Source: Plumapathes pennacea
Lineage: Eukaryota; Cnidaria; Anthozoa; Antipatharia; Myriopathidae
Direction: 5' to 3'
NCBI GenBank assembly: GCA_964036295.1
Contig: OZ038472.1
Location: 13,240,385 to 13,304,384, forward strand
DNA: 64,000 nucleotides
Positions within the stretch are counted from its first letter, which is position 1, and each line of letters begins with the position of its first letter. The notes below the pieces were generated by a model, which was not told the origin of the DNA, searched no databases, and worked only from the letters and a program-made list of their open reading frames with translations. Shown here piece by piece: positions 10,072-63,767 of the stretch. Made by a program: the position numbers and the translations under genes.

Positions 10072-13000
10072 TCAACTGGCTTCAATTGCTGTGACAGCAG
10101 TCGAAGTTTTGCTGTGTTGTTTGCAAACCCAAACGAAACCAGAGCCCTTCCTGAACTCCTTCACCATTCCTCCAAAGCCATCCTTTTGACCCAAGTCTGA
10201 GAGAAGGACCTGTAAATGCTTGTAATCAGAGCTGTACAGGTTAAACCGACGGGCTGCTCCAGGGGACTTTGCGAGACCTTTGGGGTCACTTGAAGATTGA
10301 GCACTTTTTTCTGCGCTTTTCAGGAGCTGATCCATCTGAAAAGAATGTTTGAGAGTTATAGCGTATAAGTGCCTTATGCTCCAAGCATTCCATAACGTCA
10401 CCCCTTGTTCTTAAATAGTTTAATCTTACAATGGACCATGAGCTTTGGAACTGTAAACTTTTTTGCTTAAGTCAAACACAAGAATCAGATTTACTGACTG
10501 AAAATTTTGAAAATTGAAACTGCATGCTCACGTTGCTGAACAAAATGGTTTTTAATTGAATTTTTAAACTTATTAATTTAATTCCTTTTTGGTATTTTTA
10601 AGTTAGCTTATTTTCAGCATAAAATATGTCTGGTTCAAAGGAGCACTTCTTTGCTCCTTTTCAGCCATGTAAAATGCTTCGTACCTTGTTCAAGTATTTC
10701 TTCCAGTCTCTCTTGACTGTTTCCACATTCAATCCAACTACACCCAATATCTTGTTTAGTGTCTCTTGGGATGGGAACATGCTCGCTACACCAGCAGCTT
10801 CCAACCCAGCTGCTATGAGAGCTACATTGGGGCTCACATGGTTGAGTAGCAACTGAAAACAAGGGAGGATGTCGAGTTATTATGGTTTAGCGGTGTTCAG
10901 ATAACCGTGGAAGCATAAAATTAAAATATTACTTCACCAACAACAGAGGCTGTAAGCGACACTTTTAACCAATCAGAAGTTAACTTACTTATTTACGTTT
11001 GCTTTTAATTTGAAGAATAAACCAACCAAGAGTGCGAGAAAACGCTATTGCCAATTTCTCGCTTGTTTTGATTCTGATTGGCTAAAATGCTTTTAAACTT
11101 GTTTGGACCAAGCGTAGCAAACGCAAAGAAAAACAATCACACGAATCCATTCGACAGTTCTCCGAAAACGGCTCTATGCTCTGGCTGTAAAGACACGAAT
11201 AAAAATAATGGTCGGTAGTTTGATACTATCCAGCTCAACAAACCTGCAAAACCAGCCTCAAATGCCCAGCATGCTTTAAAATGAACTCGTTAGGAGAGTT
11301 CAGTTCGTAACCCTTATGTTCATCGATGTCCAGGAAGTGAATGCCAAGCCCGTCACCATGCCCCTCGCATAACAGGAACAAGCGCCATTTTGGTTTCGGG
11401 CCAAAGTAGCTTTGTATTTTGTCCGGAAGACTTTGGAACGTTGCCAATTCTGGCCGCAGGAAAACTGTCCTGGGAACTGTGTACTGCGAAATAAGTGTGA
11501 AGATTACATTAGCACAAACTTTGTAGTAGTTTCTTTTTTCGTCCAGAGCATGTTATTTGGCGGACAAATTAATTGAACTTAAACAGCTCCTGTGTACTAA
11601 GGAAGTGGCATATAGAAACATGCTAGGAACTTAAAAATGGCTGTGGTAAAGGCGATTGCGACTCTGAAAGGCGCTGGATATCTAAGAAAGCCTAAAAGAT
11701 TGACATTTCAAACTTTGACATTGAGATCGTATATGGGCGAGTACAACAGACATAAGAGTGCAGTGTGAGTCGAACCTCTTTGGTTTGCTCAATCAGTTTG
11801 ATCATGTCACTGAATCCTTCTCTAATCTCAGTCAGCAGCATTTTCTCGTGCTGGAGTCGCTCGTCAAAGTATCGAACGACTGGCTGCAGAAGGGAAAGCC
11901 CGCCAGCGTCTTCCTTGATAGTGCTTTCTGTGGAGTTAAACAGCCAGGAGAGTTTTACGTGACCGAGTGCAACACCGTAGGTCTTGTGGCCGTCGCATAC
12001 ATGTACTGTATGCTTTGGAAAAAGAAAGAAAAAAAAAAAAAAAAAAAAAAACTAAGCTGAGCTTATTCCTAACTCATAGTCTCCAAAACCTAGCCTGTGG
12101 CTCTCTCGTTTTCGGCCAAGAGACCAGGCTACTAAATCCCCTTTGTTTGGAAATATAATTAGTTATTTTTTTATGGAAAAGCTTAAGAGAAGGAAAATAA
12201 TGATCTGATATGCAGTTGGATTTCTGGCCAAAAACTTTTAATCTGAAACGTTCAAGTTGCAGTTTCATATTTGTTGTTTAGGTGTCTTCAATTAGAAGAG
12301 AAGAGGCTTTTCTCTATGCAGCTATGTAACTTGACTGATACATAATCAAATACCTGAAGATGCCGTCCACTTCAAGTCAGGGATGACTCTGGTTTCATTG
12401 TAGCCTTTCTGCAAATCCTCTACCGCCGCCATCTTCATGCATCTCTGACATCTAACCTCACTTTCTCCTTGATTCTCTGCTGTGAAAACATCAGACTGCT
12501 CAATGTACTGAAGAAGGCACTCGGAGCAAGAGACCTTGACGCTGTGAAAAGGCTGTGACAAATCGTCAAACTCAAACAGGGTCGCGAGGATGGAATCAGC
12601 AACATTTCCACAGTTCTCCGGCCGCTCTGCCCGAACAATTACCCTGACCTCGGACGTCCGTCTGTCCACAAAGCACGGTCCACAGTCGACCCGACTCTTG
12701 TACTTGGCGTCGTGAATAACAAGTGCATTCTTGCCAATAGAAACAGAGGGATATGCTTTGACAGCCTTGAAGATGAGGTTTGGGAACATGGTACGAAGGA
12801 CATGTGGTTGTACTTTGAAAACCAGGTGTCTTATGGCAGTGAATACAGTGTTGTCGGAGGGGCTCCAGACTTCTTTAGGTAATGGCTCCAGAGAGGAGAT
12901 AACGTGAATTCTGGTCTGCGTTTGATTAGCGACCGCTAGCTGCTTGTTGATGAGGAGTTCTGCGATACACTTCTCTGGACCTACTGCGAGTATTAAATGT

Positions 13001-16000
13001 AACTATGTTACAAAAGTCCAATTACTCTGTCATTTCGGAACGATGTCTAACTCCTAAAACAAACGAAATTCTTTGTCTCTTTTTGCTGAAACTGGTTTGT
13101 AAATGGGTAATTGGCTTAATGTACCAGAGCTAGTTGCTTGATATTTATATTTTTTCAGTTTACACGACTTGCATTAGTCGGAAATATGTAAAACTTTAAC
13201 TATACCTACCAAGACTACTCGAATCGAGTGCGCCGTGATGACATGACCCCGAAATCGTCTGGAGATTCCTCGTCAGCCATTTCTCCCGTAGAATCAGGAA
13301 CACCTCCTCTTGACCAGTTATGAGGCCAAGTCCTGCTTCTTCTAGGTACCTTGCTGCCATTGTAAAAGAATATTCACCGTGGATTCCATATTCAAGTGCA
13401 AGAGACTTCAAGCGTTTCTTGCTCAATATTTCCAACCCCGCCGCTCTCTCCTGCTCCACCTTTTCTGCTAGTTTCTCTGCTCTGAACCAAACCATTCCCT
13501 GGCTTAAGTGCACTCTTTCTTCCAATACTGGTTTGATTTGTTTGAGAAGGATGGCAGGCTGTAGCTGGTACGCACATCCAACGAGGATGACTCGTTTCAA
13601 ATTTGGATTGATGTCTTGGAACGGCTTCAGGTCCAGACGGCTGGCAAGGCCCGCGCTGACGTTAAGACCCAGGAGGAGAACCTCAGCTTGTGGGGCTTTC
13701 ACGGATAACATTTGGAGCCAGTACTTTACATCAACCTTCGGTAGATTCCCGTCCAGACTGTTCCAGACGTACGCATACAGACCTCGGTCGGTCATTGACG
13801 TCAGAGCTGCCGCGTGACAAGTTATTCGATCAATGCTGATGTCAGGAACTCCCCAAAGTTCTACTTTGAGACCAGCATTTTGAAATGAATCACGTGCTTC
13901 CTCTTGCTGCATTGCGTCCTCTACTGATTGTAATGTCTGCAAATTTTGGCCGACCAGAGTCACTTTACATCTGCTCGATAAGACTCCCTTCTCGGCGACG
14001 ACTTTAAATGGGCTTCCGATGACGTGTACGCCTTCGATCGTAGCACCGACTTCGAACGTGCCTTCCTTCGGAAATAGGATAGACGCTTTATGTGTGTTCT
14101 TGCCGTCTTGCTTCACCTTGCCTTTCACGCGGGTGGTGGCGATATCAGCCATGGAAGAGGCCTCTACTCTGAACACCTGGCAAGGACATTGCAAGCTATG
14201 TAAAAATAGTCGTAGCGGGGATAAAGAAACGAATGTGGGGGAGGCTATAGCTACGGATATTGGGCCAATTTTTTAAACGAAGTCTAACTTAGACCTGGTT
14301 TATCGCTAAATTGAAGTCTAGACAGACGCCGTAAAACAGGGTCAGCCAAACGTTAAGCTGCATTTTTACAACATAGATCGGAGTCGGTTTATAAGGACGA
14401 CGCTTAGCCGTTGTCCGTTAAGCATGGCTATTGTTTAAATCTTATTTAGAGCAGGACTTTCTTAGCCGTGGTCAAAGCCTTGTTTAAAACATCGGCCCAT
14501 TCTGTTTCGAAAAAAGGCTTGCTCATGAATGGAATACTAGTTTCTGTAGAAACTAGTTTTGTTCTGTTCTGCCTAAACAAATGCCTACTTTTTGTGATGT
14601 GCTGCTGTCGTTCACTCCGTCACTTCTCAGGCCAATGCCGAACTCAAATGGTCTCCCAACGACTGCGATTTGCTGATCATCTCCCTTGTTGTCCATCTGA
14701 AGCATGTATGCAGCATTTGGATCTGTTTTGTAGTCGCTGGTCGCCAACTTTGAGCCGTGTCTAATTTCTGTACCCATTTGAGTTTTGAGAATTTGGAATT
14801 TCATCTCGTTTATCTCGTATTCAGGTTGATCTAGTACGCCCCAGAAAAATACCTGTAATAAAAATAAACAACAGAATATTAACATTGCGTCACATTTGAA
14901 CGTCTATTTTGCTGCTTTTACGTTGTAAATGAAGGATCCTATATCGCGTAATGTTTTACAATCACAGATCAGTTTCGTACGCTCTGATTGGCCAAGTTTT
15001 ATGATTCTTTTTTTTGGACATTAAGGGAAGTGTCCGGTCCAGCTTTTTGACATTGTTGTTCGTGATCAGTAAGAGGACAGATACTAAAAACTGACGTCAT
15101 CAGTTGGTGGTGGTGGTGTTAATTTTAATGATGATGATAATGATGACGATGATGAGGGCGGTACTTAGTGGTAGTGATGATGATGACGAAGAAAAAGATG
15201 ACGATAGCGATGATTGTGATTGAGACGAGGAAGACAGTGGACAACCACAAATTGACTTGTACCTTCCCATCGCTGGACAGCACAGCAGTGCTCGCTAAGC
15301 CACATGAAACCGTCGCGACCTGAAGAGCCTCCGTCAACGGCACAGGCTGAAATCTCGAAACGCTTTCAAAGGTACCACGCCCCAGCTGACCTGCAGAACC
15401 AACACCACTTGTCTGGACCACGCCCTCTTCTGTCAGCACGGCCACGTGCTGCATCCCACAAGCAAGCTCCACAACGATTGTGTCGTCCAGCTCGGTGTGG
15501 CGTTCAATGTTTCCGCCGGATAAAGGCTTCCAACTGCAAACATCTCCAATGACTGTGATGAAGAAGAACGTATCCAAAGTTGCCTCGACTCTTCTTACAC
15601 TGTCGGACAGCGTGCATTCTTTCCAAGTGAAGGAGGGCACCACGGACTTTCTGCGGTTCAGACTGCGAATAGCAAAGCCCAAGGCACGTGGAAGATCGGT
15701 TGGCAGGGTCGCACTTCTATTGGACAAAACGTTCTTGCACCACGCTTGGCAATCAGCGTAGTACGCTTTTCCTCTTACGTCGACTGCAAGTAGAACGGAA
15801 CCAGCGGATGTAACAGACACTAAATCACTGATGTTGCATGGAACAATAGCTTTTAATGCCTGGGTGTCTACGTTGGACCTCTCAGCACCGCATAAAATGA
15901 ATGCTTGGGCATCTGTCAGCGCAAATACCAGCTCGGTGAAAACAGTTCCGTAGGAGACGCTACATGTTGTAACATCCATTATGTTGTCTGTTTTCACGTC

Positions 16001-19000
16001 GGTTGGAATTGGATTGTCAACCTTGAGGCCGTAGAAGCTTTTTCCCCACATCATGACTTCGTTGTTTTCAGTGAGCACCATGGTACAGTCTTCACTGCAA
16101 GACATTTCTTTCGCTCTGGAAAGAGAGCAAAAGGGCGAGATATAAACAAAACAAAACAAAAGAAGACAGAAGGATAACATTGCATCTGTTTTACTCTACA
16201 AAGCGAGGGACAAAAGAGGAAAACAGATAAATAGAAAAGAAAATTTGGCGCCAAACTACCCACGTGACTGTTACTAAGCAACGGTAAAAAAAAACGCGCA
16301 GAACAGTAACCGATGTTTTTCGTTGTCAGATTTTTTAAATTTTTTTATTAAGCTACTAAGAACGGCTGCACAGCTTAAAAATATTACCATTTTGTTCGTA
16401 ACCACTGATTCTATTATCGACGTACCTGATTTCTTTGTTATCAGCATTCCGGCCAAGGTCGACTTTCTGTGGAGTGCTACTGTCATTTTCCTCGGTGAAA
16501 TACCCGAGCTGACCAAACCGATTGCATCCACACGTGAACACTTCCCCTTTGGTTGTCAGGAAGGCAGAGTGGTTCTTCCCAGCTGATACTTTCTGGATCT
16601 CCTTGCTTGCGCTGTACAGAGATCTCACACAAGAAAGTCCACCCTTGTTCTTAGCGTTGCCATGACCAAGTTGACCACGTGACCCTCGTCCCCAGGAATA
16701 CGCGATCCCTGAGTAGTACGTACCGTTCGCAATGCACAGGGTGTGATGTGCGCCACATGACACTGACGTCACGGTGGTGTAGTCTTTCCGACACACTGTT
16801 GGTTTAGTTTGGAATTTCATCAGTGCTGGCTCATCACACTGAAGTCCCCATCCATAAAGATAACCGCTACCAATCGCTGCAGCGTGGTGATTTCCTGCAC
16901 TAATAGATATGATGTTGGACAGACCCTGGATCTGTAGAATATATATATAGTGAGACCGATTAATTAGATAAAACGGGAACATTGGAGATATTTAGGACAT
17001 AATTTTCAAGCCTGCAGTTTTCTATCTGGCAGTAAGGTTTATTCAAACCGGCTTCAAGAACTTCCCAACTCAATGTTATATTCGGCAAATAATCGTCAGG
17101 CTTACTTTCCTATCATAGACGGGGCGTTTATACAATCAAGAAACTAAAAAGTTATATACTACTGAGCTATTTTTGGATGACTTTTACAAGTGAATGTGTG
17201 ATTGCTTTGGTTTTGCGTTTGTTACGCTTTTGGGCTGGTCCTAATAATTTTGACAGCGTTCTCGGTCGATCAGTAAAAATAGCAAAGCCCGATTGCGGTC
17301 TTCTCACGCAAGCAAAGGCGAGTTTTTGCACTGCTAATTCGCCTCTTCAAATTAAAGGAAATCGAAAACTACTTTGGCTTCTGGCTGGTTCAGAGTGTTT
17401 CCTTACAGCCTCTTTGATTGGTTGAAAGTGTATTTCTACAACCTCTTTGACTGGTTTAAAGTGCTTTCTTACAGCCTCTTTGATTGGTAATGTAAGTACT
17501 TTGGTTTTTCGAAAGTCATTCACGCTTCCTATTATTTTATAACACTTTACTTACCATGGTAGGGCTGGCCTTATCCTCCTCATCCCCATGACCCAACTGA
17601 CCAAATTCACCGCGTCCATAGGAGAACACCTTCCAATTGCTGCTCAGCATAAGTGTAAAATCAATCCCGCACGCCACTTGTGTGACGTTTATGCTGGGTT
17701 TGACGTCAGGTTCCGGGAAAAATGCAAGGTCCCCCCATGTCTGCACCCTACCATCACCGGCGACTACTGCGTGTGTACTTGACATGCTGATGGACTTAAT
17801 CTTGTTGTTGTCACACAAGACAAGACGTCTTGGGGTCAACTTGAAGTCTCCTGGAGTGTATCCTTGTGTGCTTTTTGCTTGGTTGATCCCACACTCTAAG
17901 AGCATGTCGTATGTGGTCAGCATCAGCATGTAAAACATGCCTTGATCTCTGTCCGAGCCGTCTCGTTTGCCTGTCGAGGTATAATTGACCAGTGAATCGA
18001 TTGAATTGATTTGTGTATGAAAATACAGTAGGGTCGTGCAGAGACCGGACGTACAAGCCGGTTGCCACACCCCTCCCCCTCCAAGGCTTCTTTGTTTATT
18101 ACTCTTTGAAGCTTTAGTACCACTTAACGTTGTACACTCAACTCTCTCTAATGCGGACACCCTCGGGACTAGATTTAGTGTCCGCCTTAAAGAGATGTCC
18201 GCCTTAAGAGTTCAGTTATAGAGAAACAAGTGAAATCGGCAAGGACCAAACTCTTTATGCTGTCCGCCTTAGAAAGGTGCCCGCTTAGAGAGAGTTGACT
18301 CTAGTATTCCCGTAGCATTAAACTTGCAGTTTTTGGTTTCGGTTTTGATTATCGTGTAAGATGCATTGATTAATGGACACGCTGTCTTATCAATTAACTG
18401 GTAACTTACTTGAACAGAACGCGATTTCCTTGATGTCCTTGAACTTAGTACAGGTCGGTTGTCTCTTTACTGTGACTCCAACAACACAGTCTCCTGATAG
18501 GTTCCTGTGTTGCCACGTGCTTGCAGAGCTTTTTGAAGATACACAGGAGTATAGTGGGTTGACTGGAGTTGTGGGCGGTGAATCCAGACTTACTGCCTGA
18601 AGAGGCTCAACCATAAGTACAGGCTCCTGTACACTACACAAATGGAGACAATGTATAATATCATGAGACTTGTATACAGTCAACTCTCTCTAAAGCGGAC
18701 ACCTCTCTGAGGCGGGGAGCCATGCAGATTTGGTCCTTGTTGATTTTCACCTCTTTCTCTGTAACTGAACTCTCTCTAAGGCGGACACCTTTCTTAGGCG
18801 GACACTAAATCTAGTCCCGAGGGTGTTCGCATTGGAGAGAGTTCACTGTGCTAACGGCTGCTTGTCTAAAGCACGAGGATACGATGGAATGCACACCGAT
18901 GCTCGGTTTCGCTTTCAGTCATTTCAGATTTAGACAGCACAAAGTCCCCGATTGCTATATGTTGTAAGTTAAAGTCAGTTGAAGTTTGTGCATTTAGTGT

Positions 19001-21747
19001 CCGCCTTAGAAAGGTATCGGCCTTAGAGAGAGTTCATTTACAGAGGAAGAGGTGAAAATCGACAAGGTCTAAATCTGCATGGCTGTCCGCCTTAGAGAGG
19101 TGTCCGCTTTAGAGAGAGCTGACTGTACGTATATAATACAGTCACTCTCTCAAGACGGCCACCAGTATAAGACGGACACCTCTGTTAGCCGGACAGTTGG
19201 TCCCGGGTGGTCGAATTTCATTTATTTGTCTGTATCTGCACTCTCTAAAAAGCCATACACCAAGACCAGCCCTGAGGCTGTCCGTCTTAGAAGGGGCTCA
19301 CGCTGTAGCAGTTAACGTTTAATTTTAGGTGCTCAAATTTTCATCTCAACTAATTTTGTGTTTATGAACTAAACTCTTTCACCTTTAAAATTTAAAATAA
19401 TTCCTAATCTTTATAAGAAAATGTACAAATAATGTAGTGAGAAAGAACAGTTCAAAGGTTTAAAGGCGCTGGTGTGTGTTTCCTTTGGTTTAGAAATTTT
19501 GGTTTAGAAGGTCACAATGTGGTGTGAAATTTCAAGCTGCCATGTTTCAAAGTAAGATGATGTCATTACACTTACCGCTGTTCAAAGTCAGTTCCCCACA
19601 TGAGCTTTTCGTGTTCCCCATACATGACAAGTCGCTGTTGACTCGTAGTAATCTCAGTGATAACACTGCTTCCGGTATCGATAGCCACAGGGTCAGGATA
19701 CCGCAGAAATGCACCTGGAGAGGCCAAGGTGTCGTTCAGTATCAGAGCATTCTTTCTGGCATCAAAGCAGTCTCCTTCGGGGCTGTAAGAGGTCGGAAAG
19801 GCTTGAAGGCAAGGTTTCTGGCCAGCAAGTGCATCTCCCACTCTTGAGAATAGCTCGTGGAGATTGGTTGGTGTCTTCGCCGATGTGGTGGTGAATTCTG
19901 CATTAATTTGCCTGGCTAAAGATTGAAAATCGTCTTCTATCTCTTGGCTTGGTTGGGACACTGCATCCAACTTTGTTCCAACCACAAATTTCTTGACTTG
20001 TGTGGCGTCGCCTTCGAATACTGTCTCGAACAGATCAGCCCACTTATGAAGTCCGTTAAGACTTGAAGGATCGTTTAGGGCGAAGACAAATATCGCGCAG
20101 TCCAGCTTCCGTAAGTACTGCTTCACCAGGGGGGTACACTCGGGGCTTCCTGAAGTGTCCACGATGTATAATTGACAAACCTTCGAGATGTAGTGGTTGG
20201 TGATCCAGGAACCCGTTGTTGGTTTATACTTCATGGAGTCTTTCCATGATTCACAGCCGTACTTCAAGGTCTTCACAAGGGAAGTTTTTCCCACGCCTGC
20301 ATCTCCAACCAGAACCACTTTGTACTGGTCATGTTTGCCTCCTGTCGGGGATCAGCACATTGAGAACCGTTAAGATTAATACAGTACGTTGAAGCTCCCG
20401 TAAACGGACACCAATGTGTCCGTAACTGGAACAGTCCGCTTACGAGAATGTGTAAAGACAGAGTTTGACTAAGCAAGAGTTTAAACTTGGCTTGACGTAG
20501 ACGCCCCTGACGATGGTTAGTTTATGTCAACGTAATGTTTCAAATGGTGGTGAGCAGGCCATAAAATAATAGTAAGTGCTAGCATACTGGCTTTGGATCG
20601 TAGTAAACAGTTTTAGAATGCTTGGGAAAAATTTCTAGTACAGTCAAAGCTCCCGTAAGCGAACACCTCGGTAAGCCGAAAAAATGTTCGTAACTAGAAC
20701 TGTCCGCTTACGAGAATGTGTAAATACAAAGTTTGACTGAACTACAGTTTAAACAGGGTTTCTTAGAGGCGTCCGTAAGTAGAGCTGTCCGCGTACGAGA
20801 GTGTCCGCACAGAGAGCTTGGACTATATGAGGTGCTTCCTTGATTCTTAAAATCCGGTATACAGAAAGAGAACGCAGGCATTAGTAGGTAATTGTTCAGA
20901 CAAAAGCTGATAGAAAACGGTTCAACAACCATTGAGTCGCTCATAATGTTTTCTCATTCTTTACTTCGAACCGCTGCAGCCTCGTACAAAAATCGACATT
21001 AGCACTGTATGGAGCACACGACTAATAAAGAGAATAGAGCACGCATGCGTTATTTCAATCGGTTAAAGCTTCGGTAATTTCCCCTTGTATGTCTGAGTAC
21101 AGTATAAAAGACCAGGAAAACATATCTCCTTAAGCGTGTGGCTTTTGCCATGACGAGCGAAAGCATATATTTCGACACATGTACACTACGGCTAAAGCTG
21201 AAAGTCTGGTGTGACGATGTGGATAAGAGCGAAACTACAAACGTTGTAACTTCCCGCTCTAAATTAAAAAACGAAAACAAAAACAAAAAAACACTGGTCA
21301 GTTGAATGATTGAGTTATGTTTGGTTACTATAAATTTTGCAACAGATATACGTAATGATTTTTCGCCGGTACATCATACGTCTAGTGTTAGACGTTTCGC
21401 GTGACTGCCTGTTACAGTTGCATGAACTGACAGTGACCTGTGGGTCAAGAATCTGCTGTATTCATTTACATAAGAAGCGTCTATGTTGACCATATGGATT
21501 CAGTTCGATGGTTCTTTTTTCGTCGCTGAAACAGTGAGTTTTTCAATGGGCTGTTTTACTTACTTTTTTTATCCCATTTGGCTCGAGTATACTCATCGGC
21601 CAATGTCTTGAAATTTGGCCCATCAAGTGGACTGCGCTTACGACCGTTTGGTGTGTGTTGGCACTGATTTGACGCTCAGTATATGCTGAGTAACACCGAA
21701 ATACATATCTAAGATGTGTAATACTTACCAGGTCTCGCTGGTAACAT
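10072..21747 (-). CDS. Array copy A: Rab-like GTPase / RCC1 / filamin-Ig / pseudo-ROC / COR protein
   Basis: Thirteen exons: 21729-21747, 19576-20341, 18410-18633, 17555-17970, 16426-16931, 15263-16115, 14589-14852, 13210-14176, 12354-12983, 11776-11927, 11244-11483, 10685-10852, 10072-10335. All junctions are GT-AG and phases close on 1822 residues. It starts MLPARPGGKHDQYKVVLVG. Residues 14-185 form a small GTPase: G1 GDAGVGKT (19-26), switch I PTTG, G3 DTSG (68-71, without the usual Gln), G4 TKLD (129-132), G5 TSAK (159-162). About 337-928 is an RCC1 propeller (CGAHHTLCI, AGKNHSAFL, GQLGHG). About 1017-1080 is a filamin-like Ig strand set (GKVKQDGKNTHKASILFP). About 1085-1220 is a ROC-like fold without P-loop; about 1230-1500 is COR-A/COR-B. 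C-x2-C-x22-C-x2-C follows, then a coiled coil and a C-terminal module. No signal peptide or membrane segment is seen, so it is probably cytosolic. A self-contained signalling scaffold is inferred. Confidence 0.88.
15104..15230. repeat. GAT/ATG-rich microsatellite in copy A intron 6
   Basis: GGTGGTGGTGGTG is followed by TGATGATGATAATGATGACGATGATGA and similar triplets. It lies just after the donor of exon 6 (AAG|GTACAA at 15262 on the minus strand). Reading through this donor gives a false hydrophobic, His-rich tail. Confidence 0.85.
18131..19305. repeat. GCGGACACC-type inverted repeat arrays flanking copy A exon 3
   Basis: The words CTCTCTCTAAnGCGGACACC and GGTGTCCGCCTTAGAGAGAG recur in both orientations at about 18131-18300, 18672-18850, 18985-19135 and 19138-19305, with shared inner text such as GTCCGCCTTA. 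Exon 3 (18410-18633) sits between the first two blocks. These are dispersed short elements of the kind common in anthozoan DNA. Paired copies could form long hairpins in the pre-mRNA. Confidence 0.8.
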
Positions 21748-37742: not shown

Positions 37743-37826
<84 letters not shown>

Positions 37827-50484: not shown

Positions 50485-50671
50485 ACCTGAAATGGGACAA
50501 CACGCCAAAATAACATCTCAAGATAACTGAAATGTTATTTGCCAGACGTTTGCTCACTCATTCGGGTATTTGTGGGCGAATCATCTGATTGAGAGTGAAA
50601 AATCTGGTAACACCGTGATATTTTACTGTTACTTAGAAACGCGCATGTTGGTGTGTTGTCCCATTTCAGGT
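50485..50671. repeat. Complete MITE with ACCTGAAATGGGACAACAC terminal inverted repeats
   Basis: ACCTGAAATGGGACAACAC at the left end and GTGTTGTCCCATTTCAGGT at the right end are exact inverted repeats around a 187-bp element. Flanks CACGTA and CACGTG may be an eroded target-site duplication. A second copy lies at 60154-60334 and a deleted one at 22183. Confidence 0.9.
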
Positions 50672-51407: not shown

Positions 51408-51652
51408 TGGCAAAACGAGGAACCATTGTGGCGGCAACATTGCTAGCGCGCATGTTTCCCAGATGTTGCTCCGGTTTGCGAAACATTTGTTATGGACATA
51501 TATTTTTGCCCTGGACACAAAAAATGTTTATGAAAAATTTCAGAAACATTTGTTGTGTCTGCACTGAGCACAACAATGTTGTCACACATTTTGCCACCAT
51601 GGAAACATCGAAGGACACAATGTTGCCGCCACAATGTGTCCTCGTTTTGCCA
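51408..51652. repeat. MITE (245 bp) with about 35-bp terminal inverted repeats
   Basis: The left end TGGCAAAACGAGGAACCATTGTGGCGGCAACATTG and the right end (51618-51652) are inverted copies with two mismatches. Internal text ACATTTGTTGTGTC / GGACATATA / GAAACATTTGTTATGG is also partly self-complementary. No clear target-site duplication was found. The element abuts the candidate exon at 51668-51986. Confidence 0.9.
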
Positions 51653-51667
51653 GTCCATTAGAGTTAC

Positions 51668-51986
51668 CTCTATTGGGACCAGACCGATGAGGTGACGCTG
51701 GTGCCGTTTCATGCTTCACCTGGCTGTCTGTTAAATGTTGCTGTTGACGAGACATCAACCAATGAAATACAGCTTGAGGATCCGAACTTGCGGCGAGCGA
51801 AGAGATGTCTCTAGGTGGCAGTAGCTGAATTATAGGCATGGTAGAAATTATTTTGGCCAGGCGTTTTACGGATACCTGGCTGAAAACATCTTCGATCACG
51901 GAGTAGTTTGGTGGCGGACTTTTTTCTATACCTGTTGACTTTAGACTTTTTTTTCGCTTTGCAGGTGTTGGACGTTTTGAGGACAT
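51668..51986 (-). CDS. Candidate coding exon (alternative first exon of copy C, or separate gene)
   Basis: Starting at the ATG at 51986, 106 codons run to a donor-like AGAG|GTAACT at 51667. The peptide begins MSSKRPTPAKRKKSLKS, then has a helical stretch (VFSQVSVKRLAKIISTMP) and LLPPRDISSLAASSDPQAVF. I do not recognise the family. The exon ends in phase 1, exactly the phase needed to join copy C exon 2 (which starts with GC), and it is the nearest upstream start on the same strand. If spliced so, copy C would gain about 100 residues before its GTPase domain. The phase match could be chance (one in three). It may also be the first exon of an unrelated transposon-derived gene interrupted by the adjacent MITE. 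Confidence 0.4.
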
Positions 51987-52422
51987 CTTGGCCCCTTACT
52001 CCTAAGGCGACCTGTGGTGTCTTGTGCCTTCACTCCGATATTATGTTCTGCTCATTCTCTTATAGATGAACAAAAAAAGAAATCATACTGTAAGTGTTCT
52101 GGTTGGTCGTCGATAAACCAAACTAGTCAGTGAATACATATAGTTTATTGCTCGATGCAGGCATAATTATAATCCCCGAGCGTAAGCGAGGGTAATGATC
52201 ACGACGCTAATGCAGTAGTATCGCCATATTTGGAAACTCCAAGCGGGTCACCATCTCGAAATTTAATGTTCGTCAGTCTGTCAGTCTTCGGACGACCTTT
52301 TAGGCCAGGTGCCTAAGCAATGACGTAATAATTATCGATTAGCGTCTCCGCCAGTGGTTAATTTCTGACAACAATTGTACGTAACTGCGTTCACAAAAAT
52401 GAATTTGAAAACTTGAAAACTT

Positions 52423-52625
52423 GAAACAGAACGGTCTCGCGAAGCTCGTCTTCAAAAGAGAAGGGAACAGGCACGGGCACGGCGAAATCGTGAAACGATC
52501 GAACAGCGCCAAAGACGCGAAAAGACGACAAACATGTTATAACCGGCAGCATCATGAACAGAAGCGTGCCGAAGAAACGGCTCCGCAAAGGGAACAGCGC
52601 TTGAAAGCAAAGCGGGAGCTTCAAA
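52423..52625 (+). pseudogene. Fragment of an STPR-repeat coding region (helicase-type transposon relic)
   Basis: In the frame from 52423 the peptide is ETERSREARLQKRREQARAR followed by NRETIEQRQRREKTTNML and a stop. After a frame change it continues RQHHEQKRAEETAPQREQRL and KAKRELQ. This Arg/Glu/Gln-rich pattern of about 23-residue repeats is the STPR type, known in front of helicase (Helitron/PIF1-like) domains in many invertebrate transposons. No helicase follows. The frameshift and the lack of an upstream start show it is decayed. Confidence 0.6.
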
Positions 52626-52825
52626 CGCCGTTTTGTGTTAAACTCAGATACTTATTCAGAAAGGACAAGCAACAAAGGTTAGTCAGTGGAAAGCGAACAA
52701 TCACCGTGACAAATACATTCTATCTACCTTGTAACTCGATCACTTCAAGAATGTATTAAAACCTGCATGCTGATCATTTTCCCTCGAAGTATTGTTTTAA
52801 TACAATTCTGTCGCCAGTTTCGGCT

Positions 52826-53382
52826 ACCGTATTCGAATAAAGCCAAGCTAAAGTTCCAAATCGTATAGTCTCTTTACAGACCATAATTAACAGATCAAAC
52901 ATTCAGTTTGTACCGCAAAACATGCACGTGCACACAACTGATCAACTATGCAATTGTTTCGTAGCTTTCTTAACAGGAAGCTGCATAGTGACTTGCAAAT
53001 TAATATAAAATCTATTTTAGGAGAAAACTGTAGTTTCAGATGTGAGCGCTGCATCCAGTTTGTTATATAGGTGCAGGCAACAGTCTAAGGGTACGAATAC
53101 ACAGATAATAAATTGTTTTATAACCTTCTGCAAACTTGCTTCAATATATTTCATTGATAGTCAAACTTCAGACTCAGACTGCTGTAGTTATTTGATCAAA
53201 TTAACAATCAACTTCATAACAATGTGCAGTTTTTTGTGAGCTTGGTTTTGCTAAGTCTCTTCCATGGAATTCAGAAGATTCATGGAATGCAAACGGAAGC
53301 CAAGCTGAACTTCTATAACGTATTATCTTTTTACAGACCACACTTAGCAGATCGAGAATTCAATTTGCAGCGCAAACATGTT
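52826..53382 (+). repeat. Imperfect direct duplication, about 457 bp apart
   Basis: Bases 52826-52925 (AAGCCAAGCTAAAGTTC.., TTTACAGACCA..TTAACAGATC, CGCAAAACATG) match 53284-53382 (AAGCCAAGCTGAACTTC.., TTTACAGACCACACTTAGCAGATC, CGCAAACATG). Both follow the STPR fragment, so they are probably parts of the same decayed element. Confidence 0.5.
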
Positions 53383-54852
53383 CTTGCAGAACTGCTGTCC
53401 CGTGCGTATTACTGGATCACACTTCTTCAAGAAGCCTGCTGATTGCCCCAGGCAAGTGAGCAATTTGATTTCTTTTTTCTTTCAAAATTTATAATTCGTC
53501 AGCCGCTGCTGAAAAACTTGCCCACAATTATATTATTCTCCAGACTCGGTGACAGTAAACAAACGGCAGTTTCTCGCAGTACAGTTTTATATTTGTTACA
53601 CTTTACTTTCAACTGAGGTCATATTTAAAGGCGAGTTTTTATTCAGTACCGCGAGCAGATTGTTTGGAGAATGACATGGAGATTATATGAACTGCTGAGA
53701 TTACCGCAACCAAGTGGGCTTGAGCGCATTAGAATTCCGCGACAGTGGTGGTTACAATAGTTTTTTTAAAAACCTTGAATGTTCTCAGTAATTCATACCC
53801 CCCTCCCTAACCAGCTTTAATGGTCCACCAATGCGTGTTCAAATAACTCAAAAGAACAAAACACTTGCACAAAGAATCAGTTTGTTTTTGTTTCTCACAT
53901 GTACAGCATACCGAGGTGTCAAGAGTCAGAATAAATCTGTTTGCACATGTAAAGCATACCAAGAAGCTCAAGTTTCGATCAAGCTGCAAACCTGAGTCAT
54001 GTCCGCCTATGCAAACGATTCTCAAACACGCCGAGAATACATATCTATACAGTAATGACAAAAATAATGGAGAATTCCGTGTACCAAGGGCTAGTTCAGT
54101 CAGTGCTTATTGCTAATGCGAGTAAAAAAAAAGAGATCAATGTACAAAAAATAAGGAAAGAATAACGAAAACAGAAAATAATAAATACATATAAGACAGA
54201 AAATTGAACAGGTTTGCCGTTATCTGGAAATACGTTTATGAATCAGTTGCATGCAGTTGCACCCGCGACTCGGGGAAGAGGGTGCCTCGGGTCTCCGGGC
54301 CAACTTTTCCTCATACACAGGGCCTTATAAAGCATATTATTCCCTGAGTCTACCCCAGTACAGTAAACATTTTCAAAGGTTTCCAGTGCATTTCAAGACT
54401 ACACTGTAACAAATTAAGTAAATTAAGCCTGGTGAAAGAGACACGATTCTCCGCATGTTTTTGGCAACAATCAAATCACACTTAAGTTCTGACTTCAGGG
54501 ATATAAGATTACGAGAATGGGAAAGCACCCACAAAACCAACACTTCCAATATTTCTGATCTTTAAAGAAACATTTATCTCGATAGATTTGACTGACAGGC
54601 TAGCTTGTACCTAACTGGTAGTGCCGGGCTAAGGTTTTGACGCATTGTACTCAACCTGGACCTAAACAAGGCCTGACAGCATTTTGGAATTGCCCAACCA
54701 CCATCTGTCGAACAAAGCTACTTTAATTTACTTCTCCTTTATATATGAACCTGGAGTAGATTAGGTCGGTGACTCCGAAATAAAACTTCGGATCATTATC
54801 GCTAGCTGGTCACAAACCCTTTTATGAATGCAGACAAACAGATAAGAAAAAA

Positions 54853-54940
54853 TTCTTACTGAGAGTCTCTTAGGATTCTTACAGAACAGCTGTAAAGATT
54901 CTTACAGAACTGCCCTAAGGATTTTTACAGAGATGCCAAA
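54853..54940. repeat. 23-bp tandem repeat, four copies
   Basis: TTCTTAC (the last copy TTTTTAC) begins units at 54853, 54876, 54899 and 54922, exactly 23 bp apart. Units read TTCTTACAGAACTGCCCTAAGGA with variations. Confidence 0.85.
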
Positions 54941-56963
54941 ATAATTACAAAACGTACTTGAAAAATTTCAGTGACTCGTCATTTGGAGCCCGGATACGCC
55001 ACTGTTCCGCCAGACATTATTACGTTTTACTACTGCATGCATTTTACGACATTTTCTTGGTATCCACAAGCTCCTCACATTTAGCTTCGGCTGTTGTCTT
55101 GTTCTTCGACTCTGGCCCAGGTAGGACTTCAAGATTTCTTTGAGTAGTTTTATTATCTTATCCCTTCTACTCCGAAAGGTATACTCTATATTGAGTTAAC
55201 TAAAGGGACGTGCCTATAGTCATTCATGACAGACACTTACCTTAAGCTCCGTTTTGCTCAGTTACCCGCACGGGCGCACCACTAAAGCATTTGCGGATCC
55301 ACGCTTCCTTCAACTAAGGGCAGTCGAACACTGGCGTCGACACTCGACTTTGCAGACAGACGTGTTTTGATTGTCCGTTTATGGGCCGAACTCACAGCAC
55401 TGTTGTTGGGCAAGTTAGCCAAGGCGAAGGCTATGTGGTTTATCGTGTAATACCGAGAACAAAGCTGGCTTTGAGTTCGGAGAAAACAAGGCGTGGTTTA
55501 ATGCTCGGTAATTTGAACTAGCGCGATTGTACACAGCGATCAAATGCCTGTCTATCGTGATGCCAGCGTGTGCACAATTCAAAGTATGTTGAAGTATATT
55601 AAATCATAACAGATTATTACGCTTTATGCTTTCAAGACTGATGGTTACAAGATCGCTTACCAAAATAGATGCCGTCAATAAGTTAACAAAAGTAAATGGA
55701 TAAAGAGGGGTATGGGTATGTGCCGTCCCAAAGGGTATCATTTTCAACAATTTAGTATGAAATAGGGTTTTGGGCCTCTGGTCTGGAAAGGGGTAGGATA
55801 TTTTAATATTTGGTCCGGAATAAGGTCAAAAATTGCCAAAAATTGCGTATCTTTGTCTGAATAGGGTCATAAGTCGCATAGTTTGGTCTCGCGAAGGTTT
55901 TTAGTCTTAGTTAATAGAATATGAACTCTAAAAAAAGAGACTATTGATTAATTGTGTCTTCCTGAAGATGCAGTAATGACAGCCTGACAGCCAATGGTGA
56001 TGTGCTTTTGAACTTTATATTTCCGGCCACACCAGCGTCGAATAAGAGTCGGCTGGAGACGAGAATCTTTCTCATCAGAACAGCATTAGTCTGTTAACTG
56101 ACCAGAGAGTGAGTTGGGTTCATTGCATGGGTGCAATAAATCATCTGATTGGTCAGTGCCATTGTTGAACAGAAACGTCAAAATGATCAGTAGCCTATTC
56201 TTAATTTTTAATTTATTTACTTGAGACATTACCGATCTATACTTGATACTCGATCGACACTTGTTTAAAGTTGGTAAGATAGGTAGATATTATTAGAATA
56301 GAGGACTACCTGTAAAACGCAAAAGGTTTCCTAGGGCCCATCCACAGGAAAATGAAAATCAATAAAAAAATTCATTTAGTTGACCGCGAGGGACCGGAGA
56401 CGAAAAACAAGGTCTCCGAGAGAGTCCTGGGAACAAATTGTTGCTGTAGAGACAAAATGGCGGACGATAGTTTCTCGCAATTTAAATACGTTTGAACTAA
56501 GAAAGTAAGGAAATCTACAATGGCGGAAAGCGAAGAACTAAGACGTAAAATTCCTGACGACGAGGTCTACAGACAAATTTTTGATGCATAGGTCAGCAAA
56601 CGTTTAGCAGTTTTTCACGGGACTGTCTAGCTACATTTTATTTGTTGCAGTGATATTTATGTTTGTGTCTTGTCTGTTCTGTTTTGGACCTATTAGTATG
56701 TTTTGTAGCCATTGAAACTCTCTGTAGTTTTTCTTGACATGAAGAAGCAAACGACAGCTGTGAGACGATGCATATTAATGCTCAATTTTATGTTAAATGT
56801 ACAGTACTGTGGTCTGCCGTCTAGAAACCATTTAAAAACTACATATTAGTAAACTCCTTGGCAAAGCTCCGTTCTGTATCAAATTTCGAGGCGCTATGTG
56901 TTAAAAGGATACGAAATAACAGAGCTTCTGCAATTATTGCAGGTTAATCTTGTGGAATCTTAG

Positions 56964-58153
56964 AGAAAGAAATACGTCCCGTTACACCGAAGTCCCAAAT
57001 GGTGTTGCCCCTGGTGCGAGAATCAAGGGCTTTCACAGGAAACGGCATCTTGACCAGGAGGCAAAAGACTTGGACAGAAGGAAGGCCAAATGAAGGGAAA
57101 ATTGAAAACCCAGTTTATTATAAGTGAGTATACAGTTCATTGCTTGTAATCCAGTCATCAACAGAGAGTCTGAAGGCACACACACAATCTACTGTACATT
57201 ATAATAATTATGATATAGATTATTATAGATATCAGTGAAACACCAGGATTTACCTGGTACTGAAAACTAATATATTTATGGCACATAATATCTTCACACA
57301 CTGGAAAGATAAAAAAAGTATGAGTTATGTATCCTCACCTGTGCTTGTGGGTTTTGAAGACAGGTAGTTCTGGTCACATGGCCATTTGGAGATACAAATT
57401 TTATCATCTAGCATTGATATAGACTCTCACTCATTCAGCTAGCTCACTCATGACAGCATACAGCTGTATTATCTACTATTACTATAAAATTCAGATCTCC
57501 ATGTGCCAGGTAATATCCTCTGGATGTATATGATATGCAACCAACCTGCAAACATTTGTCACATATTAATTCTCCATTACTCCTTAACTCCATTACTTAA
57601 TTTTGACCTGTTTATTATTTTATTAGAATTATTCAGACTTACAACTAGGTTTGTTTTCCTAATTAGTAAGACAAAGTGCAATTACTAACTGCTAAACATT
57701 AATAGATAACACTGTGCAGTAATTAAATTAATACGTACTTAACAGCTTTAACACATAATTTTTGAAATCTGATGCTTCTTTTTCTTTTAATGTTACCAGA
57801 ATATGCAGTAATGGAGATTTATACAGCAGCTGTTTATCTATGACCAAAATTGATTTACTTCATATTGTATTGTATAGGTACACATCTCTTGAATCCCAAT
57901 GCAAAACAATACAGCCAGATGATGTTGAGGCTGCCAGGGAAGTACAAGGCCTGCTTGATACAACAGGTAGTACTGATTATTAAGCTGTACTTTATCTGTC
58001 TGTTCCTTTGAGTAATATGAAAAAAAAAAAAAAAAAAAATGTTTTAAAGGTTATCTTAATCTATTATTACTTGTGGTCACTTTTGTTCTAGAAATACTTC
58101 AACAGCAGTCAAACATCATTGAGAGGCTTCAAGCAAGCAGAAAAGAAAGGTGA
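56964..58153 (+). CDS. Small unrecognised gene on the plus strand, three coding exons (5' end unresolved)
   Basis: Three exons, 56964-57123, 57878-57966 and 58092-58153, have AG acceptors and GT donors (TATAA|GTGAGT, ACAG|GTAGTA). They join in phase to about 101 residues ending KER-stop at 58153. The peptide runs KEIRPVTPKSQMVLPLVRES, then RRQKTWTEGRPNEGKIENP, then a helical C-terminal half (VEAAREVQGLLD, QQQSNIIERLQASRKER). The frame is open across both junctions, which is unlikely by chance. The family is not recognised. A likely first exon starts at 56521 (MAESEELRRKIPDDEVYRQ), but it meets an in-frame TAG at 56590-56592 just before a GTCAGC donor. An earlier GTAAAA donor after 56545 would fit the phase. 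Alternatively the true start is elsewhere or the gene is damaged. It runs antisense inside the possible copy C intron 1. Confidence 0.55.
58021..58039 (+). repeat. Poly(A) tract
   Basis: Nineteen A bases in the intron between the last two exons of the small plus-strand gene. Confidence 0.95.
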
Positions 58154-59620
58154 TTAGAATAATTATGTACTAACTAAAGTTAATTATGACTGACTGCACA
58201 GCTCCAGGGAATAGTCCTTTGACTATCAATGAAATATACTGAAGGACATAAGCAGAATTTCTAGTAAAGATTACATGGTTACAGGTTCAGTTATTTTTAC
58301 ATTGGTCAGTTTGGCCGTTTTGAAGATGCCTGTTGTCTCAGCTGCTTCAAAGAAACATCTTGGTGAAACAGCATTTTTTGTGAACTAAAATGACTTTGAT
58401 TGAATTAACATGATGTAGGTAAATACAGTACGTTGAAGCTCCCGTAAACAGACACCGTTGGGAAACAGAAAAAGTGTCCGTAACCGGAACTGTCCGCTTA
58501 CGAGAATGTGTAAATACTGCAGAGTTTGACTGAGTTGACGTAGACGGTGGTTGTTTATATCAAAGTAATTCGTGTTTCAAATGGCGAGGAGCAGGCAATA
58601 AAATAATAATAAGTGCTAGTGTACTAGCTTTGGATTGTAGTAAACACTTTTAGAATGCTATGAGGTGCTTCCTTGATTTTCAAAATCCGGCATACACGCA
58701 GGCATTAGTAGGTATTGTTCAGACAAAAGCTGATCGAAAACGGTTCAATAGCCATTGAGTCGCTCAAAATGTTTTCCCATTCTTTACTTTTAAGGAGATA
58801 TGTTTTCCTGGTCTTTTATACTGTACTCAGACATACAAGGGGAAATTACCGAAGCTTTAACCGATTGAAATAACGCATGCGTGCTCTATTCTCTTTATTA
58901 GTCGTGTGCTCCATACCGTGGTAATGCCGATTTTTGGTGACAATTTCAAGTGTTCGCGTAGGCAAGCCACAAACTGAGTATGAGGCTGCAGCGGTTCGAT
59001 TAAAAGCGTACGGCTTTTACCATGACGAGCGAATGCCATATATTTCGACACATGTACACTACAGCCAAAGCTGAAAGTCTAGTGTGACGATGTGGGTAAG
59101 AACGAAACTGCAAACTTTGTGATTTCACGCTCTAATGAAAAAGAACACTTGTCAGTTCGATGACTGAGTTATTTGGTGGTTACTATAAATTTTGCAACAG
59201 GTATTCGTCATGATTTTCCGCCGGTATAATATACGTCTGTTGAACCTTTCGCGTGACAGCTTGTTACAGTTGTTTTAAGTGATATATAGTGACCTGTGGG
59301 TCAAGAATCTGCTATATCATTTACACAAGCGTCTTTGTTTACCATGAAATAGACACAGTTTCAAGGCACCGCGTGCCTGTCTTTATAATTGTTGTGCCTT
59401 TGATGGTTCTTTTTTTGTCGCTGAAACAGTGAGTTTTTCAGTCGGCTCTTTTACTTTTTTTTTTATCCCATTTGGCTCGAGCATATTCATCGGCCAATGT
59501 CTGAAAATTTTGCTCATCAACTGAACTGCGCTTAGGGCCGTTTGGTGTGTGTTGGCATTTGATGCTCTGCATAAGCTGAGTAACATCAAAATATATCTAA
59601 GATCGTGTGTAAATACTTAC

Positions 59621-59639
59621 CAGGCCTCGCTGGTAACAT
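59621..59639 (-). CDS. Candidate first exon of copy C (MLPARP-G), 19 coding bases
   Basis: ATG at 59639 opens MLPARP and ends one base into the next codon at a consensus donor (G|GTAAGTA). The sequence is nearly identical to exon 1 of copy A and has the phase needed for copy C exon 2, giving MLPARPGTNILTYKVG. Its place, upstream of C and before the 3' end of D, matches the exon 1 positions of A and B. It would need a 10-kb intron. It could instead be an orphan promoter and exon 1 duplicate. Confidence 0.55.
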
Positions 59640-60686: not shown

Positions 60687-60687
<1 letters not shown>

Positions 60688-60719
<32 letters not shown>

Positions 60720-60745
60720 GCTAATCCACTACCACTACTACTAAG
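60688..60745. repeat. (CTA)n microsatellite
   Basis: About ten CTA triplets (ACTACTACTACTACT), then an imperfect continuation (CCACTACCACTACTACTAAG). It marks the right boundary of the segmental duplicate. Confidence 0.9.
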
Positions 60746-61355: not shown

Positions 61356-63767
61356 TCAGTGAGGTTTTTCCGCTGGTTCGAGAGCACCAAGTGATGTGAT
61401 TTCATCCAGGATTTGTTTGTGCTGCTTGCAAACCCAAACAAAACGATCCCCTTCCCTGGGTTCTCTAACCAGCCCACCAAAGTCGCCCTTCTTATCTCCA
61501 AGTTCTTCAAAGAATCTCTTCAATTGTTGGTACGCATCGCTGTAGAGTTGCACGTGATGCGCAGTTGGCTCAGTTTTGCCATCTTGGTCTTCGTCTTCGC
61601 TAAGCATGCCAGACTCTTTAAATGCTCGGATAATCTTATGGGCCTGTCAAAAACAAGAAAAGCTAGTTTAAAAGTCGACTGTTTCATGCTAACCGAACCT
61701 TCGGCAGAAATGTCCTCAACCAGGAATCGAAAGTTATTCTACGACGCTTTTCGTGGTTGTTTGTAGGAGTCTACAAAGTTTTCCGAGGGGTATTCCCATA
61801 TGTAAGTCATTTAGATATGGTGTTTAGTTTAAAGTGGGGATAGATCTTGTCTCTTTGGTCTGAATTAGAGTAGTGGATTTTGCTTGTTTTCGTATTTGAT
61901 CTTATATATGTGCAAATGTTTAAGATACAGGTCTTAAATAGTGTCAAAAATTCTGAAATAGGGGAGGGGTTTCCAGCACCTGGCGGGTCAGGAGTACAAC
62001 CGCAACCCCACCTCTTCGGGGGTAAAGAGGCGTAGACCCTTACCCGGGCAATGTGTTTCTTCCAGTTTGTGGTACGCAGAGCAGGGTCGTCACAGTCCAA
62101 AGCACCGCCCAAAACAGGAAGAAATGTTTCTCCTGGTGGAATGAAGTCCATTGCCTTTTCAAGGCCGGGCTTGAAGGCAGACAGTGTGAACTGAAAGTCA
62201 AAAAGAGGATATAGGAAAATGGAGTCGCTCCAATTTTCAACTATCAAATAAATTCAATTACTTTGGTAATTGCAGACCAGTTTTATAAATATCTCAGTAA
62301 CAATGATATGTTATATATCAAACTGACAATCGGGTGTAGCACTGGCACTACCTTGCTAAAACCAACTGATGAATGGCGTATGAGCACCGACAAAGTCCAC
62401 ATAAACGGATGGATGCCCGTCGGAAGTTTTTGTTTTGACGCCTAGATACTAAAATGAGCGTGGCTCGAGCTTATTTTGGCCCCTAAAAGGCACAATGAAA
62501 AAATACTTATAAAAGCATGTTTAGTGGGATGAAAAGTCCGTTCGACTGACGCCCTACCCCTGAACGGTACGACGTTTCATAAGAATGTCGGCGTTTGATC
62601 TTAAGCGCCCTAAGCGCCGAATCTGTGCGGGTGTCTATAGTGCTCTTTCCCTGACCCCTTCTAAGACGTCATACGGAATGAATTCGCGATTAATGTCAAT
62701 TCACCCCGGTTTGTCAAGGTGTGTAATTCGTCGTGTAGTCGACGCAGTTTTGTCGTAATTTCTAGATTGAAGTACAACTGACTGTAAACTGTGTCCAAGG
62801 TGCTCTTTGAGATTGAATTGCACTTAGAACAAAGAAAGGGAAAGGATGTTTGGTTGCAGAAAGGAATAGTAAAAATATAAAAAAGGAATTAATCGATACC
62901 GGCAAGTATTCCCTGCAAGTAATAACCTGCCCGATCGGGCTCATCTTACGAGTTTGGACAATGGATAGCAATAAATAAGCTAACGTTCGCGTTTACGGGC
63001 TTAACCGCTAGTAACAATAGTGATATTTAAAGACAGACGATATGCCTACCTTCAGACTGACCACAAGCAATGGGACACATTTCTCAACGAAACTACTAAA
63101 ATCGAGAATCGGATATCCACTGTGGTCAATTAGATGAATTCCAACACCATCACCATATCCCTCACACACAAGATGCAAGCGCCACTTTCTTTTGAGGATG
63201 TGAAACTTTTCGTTTGGCAATATGCACACTGTCCTTGGGACGGTACACTGGAAAGTAATCCATAACACGTAGTAAAAACGGGTTATCAGAGGTAGTGCGA
63301 TGTTGGTTTTGTTAAAGGGGAGGATAGTAGGTTTGAATTGATTAATTGTCTTGAAATTCCCATATTTTGTACTCGTTGATGTTGAGGTTACTGGTAAAGT
63401 GTAGGAGCTAAGGGCTACGATTGTGTATTTGAAACACACTTGTTAGAAATGACTTTTATCTGAGTTGTAACATTGAATGAAATATTGCCCTATCAGCGGA
63501 GGCTTTTCTTTAACCAATGTGTTCCGAAAATGGCAGGGATACCGGATTATTAATGGTGGGCCTACAAATAGACTGCAAAGCTGAGTTCTAATGTTTTTTA
63601 GGGAGAACAGCGTGAACTAACCTCTTCGTTGTCTGAAATTAGATTGGCGATCTTGTTGAACTCTTTTTTCATCTCTGAATACTGATGTTCCTGCCCAGCC
63701 TTGATGCAATGGAGCACGGGTTTCATAAGGGCTTGCGCAGATGGCTTTTCCTTGCGTTTGCGGCATT
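61356..63767 (-). CDS. Array copy D, C-terminal part (last four exons; continues past the window)
   Basis: Exons 63622-63767, 63050-63247, 62044-62190 and 61356-61643 correspond to exons 10-13 of the other copies, with the same phases. The first (ECRKRKEKPSAQALMKPVLH) is the coiled-coil exon. The second carries CTVPRTVCILPNEKF and WRLHLVCEGYGDGVGIHLID, closest to copy C. The third (FTLSAFKPGLEKAMDFIPPG) is exactly as long as in copy C (147 bases), and so is the last (288 bases), which ends with GGLVREPREGDRFVWVCKQH and a short acidic tail. The 63768-64000 remainder is intron. Upstream GTPase, RCC1 and COR exons are expected beyond base 64000. Confidence 0.85.

Follow-up and report, generated by a model that had tools for sequence, protein, structure and literature searches.

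In Trichoplax, a Ras-like domain has been described N-terminal of ROC-COR on one chain (TRIADDRAFT_62404, 62498 and 57945), and a ROC-COR dimeriser with a Ras-like GTPase as its output has already been proposed for three Trichoplax proteins (PMC4104024). LRRK1 and LRRK2 are functionally linked with Rabs, and it is debated how, in ROCO proteins, the nucleotide state of ROC is coupled to dimerisation through COR (PMC6337361). LRRK2 also forms a complex with NEURL4 and HERC2, the members of which bind several Rabs, and nucleotide exchange on ARF1 and some Rabs has been reported for the RLD of HERC1 (PMC4565672). Here, a stretch of 64,000 nucleotides from the anthozoan Plumapathes pennacea (assembly GCA_964036295.1, contig OZ038472.1, positions 13,240,385 to 13,304,384; hereafter the window) is compared with these systems. 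Self-comparison of the window shows a gene in four copies, three of them full (A, B and C) and the fourth partial (D), head to tail and all on the minus strand. The predicted domain order on one chain is GTPase, RCC1, filamin-type immunoglobulin (Ig), degenerate ROC, COR, CxxC and C-terminal module.

On balance, the array as a whole is best explained as a set of four paralogues that encode a single type of scaffold protein derived from ROCO, which we regard as somewhat probable. The Ras GTPase, the RCC1-type repeats and the filamin-type Ig occupy the position of leucine-rich repeats (LRRs) in related frames. The family is filed as ROCO-derived, and not as a ROCO GTPase, because the nucleotide motifs of its ROC are lost.

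The ROC-COR half and its relatives in the same genome

For reference, 20 ROCO loci were fetched from the same genome and their 18 frames of at least 400 residues were used, whereas L022 and L026 (<400 residues) were dropped; ten COR-A loci (seven sub-threshold, three over cut-off), which are possible further relatives, lay outside this comparison. All hhalign E-values are those of a single comparison. The C-terminal halves of the four copies aligned with the 18 frames at a local probability of 97.2 (score 96.7, 533 columns) and a global probability of 99.0, against 0.4 for the reversed control and at most 0.9 (score 25.2) among ten column shuffles. By piece, the probabilities were 53.8 for ROC, 91.1 for COR and CxxC together, and 28.9 for the tail. 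With the seven frames that end in a W(V/L)CxxH tail, local probability was 94.2 (score 68.8, 552 columns) and global probability 97.7 (607 columns), against 0.3 for the reversed control and at most 1.4 (score 26.9) among 20 shuffles. Here COR and CxxC reached 63.7, the tail 64.9 and ROC 9.2, and the RCC1, Ig and coil pieces 0.1 each; the front GTPase piece reached 68.8 and landed on the reference ROC, as expected of a Ras-superfamily domain. At the level of sequence profiles, these alignments show the C-terminal half to be homologous to, and colinear with, the ROC-COR half of ROCO proteins of the same genome, which bears out the ROC-COR-like unit proposed in the earlier, sequence-only reading of this stretch.

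The same alignments place the family with the tailed group of ROCO frames. The zinc-ribbon-like motif and conserved C-terminal module of the sequence-only reading are present, and the four Cys of CxxC...CxxC are invariant in A to C, but they are not additions: both are common to the tailed group (7 of 18 frames), although not to all ROCOs of the genome, and their origin as new inventions was ruled out. The seven tailed frames keep G3 and G4 throughout and the P-loop in six, the seventh lacking that part. In contrast, none of the four array copies has a ROC P-loop, a G3 or a full G4, and the inner GTP site is apparently dead.

A profile of exon 8 from A, B and C matched LRRK1 in the PDB at E 2e-4, within its ROC, in a region that includes or borders on K746, which is part of the ROC (PMC10643122). 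Sub-threshold Pfam matches to COR-A were found in C (0.025 as a piece, 0.15 whole) and D (0.017), and to COR-B in the B piece (0.015) and the C piece (0.049) and in neither A nor D; copy C carries both, in canonical order. None of three reversed controls gave a COR match. Single Pfam matches at 0.015-0.05 mean little alone, because unrelated matches to the reversed controls reach comparable values (given below), and the COR matches carry weight only in combination. PDB searches gave nothing with the tail and no convincing match with exon 9 (best 0.017), and NCBIfam gave nothing useful on the ROC-COR part. No Pfam kinase match was obtained in any of the four copies, nor any ankyrin, LRR or HECT match.

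Genome-wide searches covered the 290-Mb genome in 24 contigs, the best candidates of each search being scored. Among these, exon-8 and exon-9 queries returned only the four array copies. Exon 13 additionally found a fragment of exons 12-13 on another chromosome (C3:13906104-13906346; L034, L036, L037), where only those exons were seen within the 20 kb read. The GTPase exon found at least 18 further, distant places, and an RCC1 exon at least six further short stretches, two of them inside the array. There are at least 63 COR-A matches in the genome, 55 of them over cut-off and many clustered (C2, C3, C4, C7, C8 and others), which amounts, on sequence, to a large ROCO expansion. Outside the array, the nearest pair of RCC1 and COR-A loci is ~82 kb apart on C5, by eye among 101 RCC1 matches (from the best 150 of 168 candidates) and 63 COR-A matches, a comparison blind to any ROC-COR too divergent for Pfam, as is that of the array itself. 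Pattern searches gave 91 matches in a collection of prokaryote genomes and 25 in a viral one, but no relative of the ROC-COR profile or of the tail could be confirmed among them.

GTPase, propellers and Ig domain

The front domain, which is internal to the chain, exceeded the Pfam Ras cut-off in all four copies (83.0 bits in A, 71.1 in B, 35.4 in C and 42.7 in D). Copies A and B keep G1 (P-loop), the switch-I Thr and Asp-x-x-Gly, with G4 as T(K/Q)xD and G5 as SA(K/T), but their catalytic Gln is replaced by Ser. Copy C lacks G3 and G5, and D lacks the Ser/Thr of G1 as well as G3. A GTP switch is plausible for A and B only; the self-contained signalling switch of the sequence-only reading is implausible for C and D, because their GTPase motifs are broken. 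The same reading called the domain Rab-like, of which Ras-superfamily membership stands: the best PDB matches of copy A are Rab6 (57.1 bits) and HRas (55.8 bits), and Rab cannot be told from Ras on such scores. The best GTPase frames elsewhere in the genome are 23-33% identical and appear Rab-, Rap- and Ras-like by eye.

Similarly, Pfam RCC1 and WD40_RLD exceeded their cut-offs in all four copies, but the one propeller originally proposed is probably two, to judge from the repeats. A repeat model built from A to C themselves placed nine RCC1-type repeats in each of these copies (residues ~345-953). An extra RCC1-like repeat at ~234-258 is very weak (-3.1 in A, 11.1 in B, -3.4 in C), and residues 690-845 hold about three degenerate blades by eye, which brings the tally to nine clear and about four weak repeats, as a blade count from the sequence of A to C only. 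The nearest solved relatives of the copy A propeller region are UVR8, HERC1, RCC2, HERC2 and RPGR, ahead of RCC1 itself. Behind the propellers, the exon-8 profile of A to C matched the filamin-type Ig of TRIM45 in the PDB (E 0.003), and filamins more weakly. Overall, the order of GTPase, RCC1, filamin-type Ig, pseudo-ROC and COR on one chain is upheld by Pfam, the PDB profile and hhalign combined; in Pfam searches as such, Ras and RCC1 exceeded the cut-offs, whereas Filamin and COR did not.

Gene structure, divergence and surroundings

The array is bounded by 10072, the last base of the copy A stop codon, and 63767, the first base of copy D exon 10. Splice sites were set by hand from positions conserved between the copies; the first automatic gene models contained false micro-exons and were dropped (Table 1). 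Of the four copies of about 1830 residues initially reported, A, B and C are intact (13 exons each; 1822, 1835 and 1829 residues), with GT-AG introns, identical phases, a single terminal stop each and no internal stops. Copy D, in contrast, has only 4 of its 13 exons (10-13) within the window. Exons 2-9 were found in flanking sequence, to 71960 in window numbering (~8 kb further), and yield 1794 residues without exon 1, in the same phases as A to C and with no internal stops; a strict pattern search of 9.5 kb upstream did not find exon 1. A 19-nt first coding exon (MLPAR/MLPAN) is conserved upstream of A and B, and a third lies at 59.6 kb. This third exon was given to copy C, across a 10-kb intron, because it is the sole other matching first exon upstream of C within the window, and the assignment is uncertain. 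Pieces of 58422-60138 are 74-78% identical to 20378-22191, that is, the upstream region, exon 1 and intron 1 of A, placed between D and C; the exon 1 assigned to C lies inside these pieces.

The possibility that the GTPase, RCC1 and COR segments belong to separate genes is very unlikely, because the domains share exons and the introns between the GTPase, exon 3 and exon 4 are short. For instance, exon 7 holds the RCC1 end and the Ig start, and exon 8 the Ig end, ROC and COR-A. The gap from GTPase exon 2 to exon 3 is 942 nt in A, 554 in B and 180 in C, and that from exon 3 to the first RCC1 exon, exon 4, is 439, 298 and 1,090 nt. The phases are kept in all four copies, which together with the shared exons and short introns led us to reject separate genes. 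The conserved start exon was seen solely ahead of the GTPase, no start-exon search having been made elsewhere in the genes.

Protein identity is 67.6% between A and B, 46.1% between A and C, and 47.1% between B and C. Pairwise ratios of nonsynonymous to synonymous divergence (dN/dS) are 0.18-0.56 for nine segments in three pairs of A to C; those involving C are rough, as dS for A-C and B-C is mostly >1 and near saturation. By these ratios, every part of A to C is under selection. Given these identities and ratios, the predicted reading frames are not chance. No dN/dS >1 was seen among the nine segments or the A-B windows, the highest of which (0.93) falls in a tract with lowered dS. Between A and B, residues 1417-1516 and 1617-1723 of A have dS down to 0.07-0.21, against mostly 0.4-1.5 elsewhere. 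This lowered dS, in COR-B and the tail, is likely to reflect gene conversion.

Table 1. Coordinates of the array genes within the window, with the content or basis of each feature.
Feature	Position	Strand	Content or basis
Copy A, whole	21747..10072	-	hand splicing
Copy A exon 1	21729..21747	-	start codon, MLPARP|G; conserved with B and C; donor GTAAGT; phase 1
Copy A exon 2	19576..20341	-	Ras-superfamily GTPase (Pfam Ras 2.3e-23), then possible first RCC1-like blade (very weak repeat, residues 234-256)
Copy A exon 3	18410..18633	-	linker ahead of RCC1 repeats; splice sites and phase conserved in A, B, C, D
Copy A exon 4	17555..17970	-	RCC1 repeats; Pfam RCC1/RLD and repeat scan
Copy A exon 5	16426..16931	-	RCC1 repeats; Pfam and repeat scan
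Copy A exon 6	15263..16115	-	RCC1 repeats, second set; Pfam and repeat scan
Copy A exon 7	14589..14852	-	end of last RCC1 blade, start of filamin-type Ig; Pfam Filamin 6.4e-4 across exons 7-8, below cut-off
Copy A exon 8	13210..14176	-	Ig end, degenerate ROC, COR-A; PDB profile search
Copy A exon 9	12354..12983	-	COR-B and CxxC...CxxC; hhalign to own-genome ROCO frames
Copy A exon 10	11776..11927	-	helical-looking segment; conserved splice sites
Copy A exon 11	11244..11483	-	ROCO-type tail, first part; hhalign tail piece
Copy A exon 12	10685..10852	-	tail
Copy A exon 13	10072..10335	-	tail end (WVCKQH) and stop
Copy B, whole	34512..22808	-	hand splicing
Copy B exon 1	34494..34512	-	conserved with A and C
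Copy B exons 2-13	22808..32984	-	1835 residues with exon 1; Pfam
Copy C, whole	59639..37352	-	hand splicing
Copy C exon 1, tentative	59621..59639	-	matches exon 1 of A and B; 10-kb intron
Copy C exons 2-13	37352..49589	-	1829 residues with exon 1; Pfam
Copy D exon 10	63622..63767	-	
Copy D exon 11	63050..63247	-	
Copy D exon 12	62044..62190	-	
Copy D exon 13 and stop codon	61356..61643	-	

Elsewhere in the window, PSMD5-like exons lie at 6135-8073 (+), convergent with copy A, and a 190-bp unit is present in four tandem copies at 3360-4108. A further four open reading frames of the window had no Pfam match, and Rfam and tRNA searches gave no matches. Separately, at C1:18010687-18168731, C8:228664 and C8:11206443 (L042, L043, L049, L055), four of eight translated frames begin with a part resembling the tail of a kinase C-lobe (by eye), followed by a Rab-like GTPase, and a kinase-Rab fusion family clustered on C1 is possible.

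Interpretation and comparison with known systems

If the array encodes a ROCO-derived scaffold, the protein would dimerise through COR and, as a dimer, would have escaped control by its own ROC, the propellers and Ig would dock partners or ligands in place of LRRs, and nucleotide control, where it is left, would have moved to the front GTPase. In A and B this domain would probably bind GTP and hydrolyse it slowly (catalytic Gln = Ser), and C and D, lacking a switch, may serve as scaffolds or modify the action of A and B.

Several observations weigh against this explanation. The front GTPase is eroded in two of four copies (C and D), and in A and B it also exceeds the Pfam Roc cut-off (46.4 and 45.0 bits), Ras scoring higher. 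Pfam Filamin reached 21.0 (A), 19.7 (B) and 22.0 bits (C) against a cut-off of 26.9, D being unlisted; because these values are below cut-off, the Ig domain is called filamin-like only. No copy has a Pfam COR match over cut-off, copy A has none at all, the four copies are absent from the genome-wide COR-A (63 matches) and COR-B (24 matches) listings, and the LRRK1 match has a second part, COR-A-like, that carries no score (-0.5 bits). Reversed controls gave unrelated Pfam matches at 0.042-0.12. Copy D keeps the Asp of ROC G4. The seven tailed frames were picked by a motif that the family itself carries, a choice that favours the tail score, and they represent few types only. Against the 11 frames without this motif, the family gave a probability of 5.5 (score 32.3) over ROC and COR-A, with at most 0.2 (score 19.0) among ten shuffles, and its tail had no match there. 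Finally, COR is not the dimeriser in every ROCO, as the LRRK1 dimer uses little of it (PMC10643122).

Other explanations of the array were also considered. The chain might be a fused working unit of Rab, RCC1-like exchange factor and ROCO, in which the propeller works in cis on the GTPase at the front and the dimer formed by COR serves as output platform. All three kinds of part are present on one chain here, and the LRRK2-NEURL4-HERC2 complex with its Rab binding, like the exchange activity reported for the HERC1 RLD on ARF1 and some Rabs, gives the idea a precedent (PMC4565672). The motifs of the GTPase to be acted upon are, however, broken in C and D, and the propeller of copy A is nearer to UVR8, HERC1, RCC2, HERC2 and RPGR than to RCC1. 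Many RLDs are, moreover, thought to be binding platforms, which counts against an exchange factor in cis, and we consider this arrangement unlikely. Innate sensing, as suggested in the sequence-only reading, would make the protein an intracellular recognition receptor in which the propellers and Ig replace an LRR sensor, the tandem expansion serving defence. The tandem arrangement would fit, as would the genome's many ROCO loci (55 of 63 COR-A matches over cut-off), and a role as immune receptors has been proposed for other ROCO expansions, including the LRR-Roc/Ras-COR-TIR genes of a sea anemone (PMC4104024; PMC5094078). Yet dN/dS is well below 1 in the nine segments and in no A-B window exceeds 1, and no TIR, death or CARD domain is among the Pfam matches of the copies; the suggestion thus went unsupported, and a receptor seems doubtful.

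It is highly improbable that the copies are decaying relics of an old fusion gene: GTPase motifs are lost in C and D, ROC motifs in all four, and a fragment of exons 12-13 lies on another chromosome, but frames are intact over 12-13 exons in every copy, and the pairwise dN/dS of A to C holds at substantial divergence. A ROCO-derived scaffold family remains the preferred explanation. A bolder version of it, which we offer only as a slim prospect, is that one polypeptide fuses a Rab/Ras-like switch, a pair of RCC1-type exchange or docking propellers and a COR dimer, a combination that LRRK2 reaches only in complexes; the ancestral ROC would have been retired, its switch role passed to a second GTPase at the opposite end of the protein, and C and D would be switch-less regulators.

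Among the closest known systems are the tailed ROCO frames of the same genome (L010, L015, L016, L020, L021, L023, L025), which share ROC, COR-A, COR-B, CxxC and tail, colinear over 552-607 columns. They differ in having LRRs in front (by eye in L010, L016 and L020) and intact ROC motifs, and no RCC1, Ig or second GTPase was seen in them. The Trichoplax ROCOs are alike in having an N-terminal Ras-like GTPase with ROC-COR within a large ROCO expansion; compared by description and not by sequence, they differ in that RCC1 is absent from the text of PMC4104024, and RCC1 and filamin from its figure 1 legend, and in that ROC is dead here. The sea anemone NG1 proteins (LRR - Roc/Ras - COR - TIR) are likewise a lineage-specific shuffled ROCO architecture in an animal, with a low-threshold COR (PMC5094078), but have TIR and LRR where the array has RCC1, Ig and a dead ROC. 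No description of RCC1 together with ROC-COR was found in titles and abstract starts of the open-licence literature, among the matches listed, protein databases being outside this scope. The novelty first claimed must accordingly be narrowed: a Ras-like domain with ROC-COR is already known, whereas RCC1 joined to ROC-COR appears undescribed within the open-licence literature searched.

LRRK1 and LRRK2 share ROC homology with the family, LRRK1 being the best PDB match, but the array has no kinase, ankyrin or LRR match and its ROC is dead. A ROCO descendant that has lost the nucleotide motifs of ROC while its COR and tail are under purifying selection may make it possible to ask about the role of COR where ROC does not switch. 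HERC1, HERC2 and other RLD proteins share RCC1/RLD repeats over the Pfam cut-off; no HECT match was obtained here, and the repeats are instead fused to a GTPase and a ROCO half. That one chain carries RCC1 propellers together with a small GTPase may hint, by the logic of gene fusion, that the association of LRRK2, HERC2 and Rabs is old and functional.

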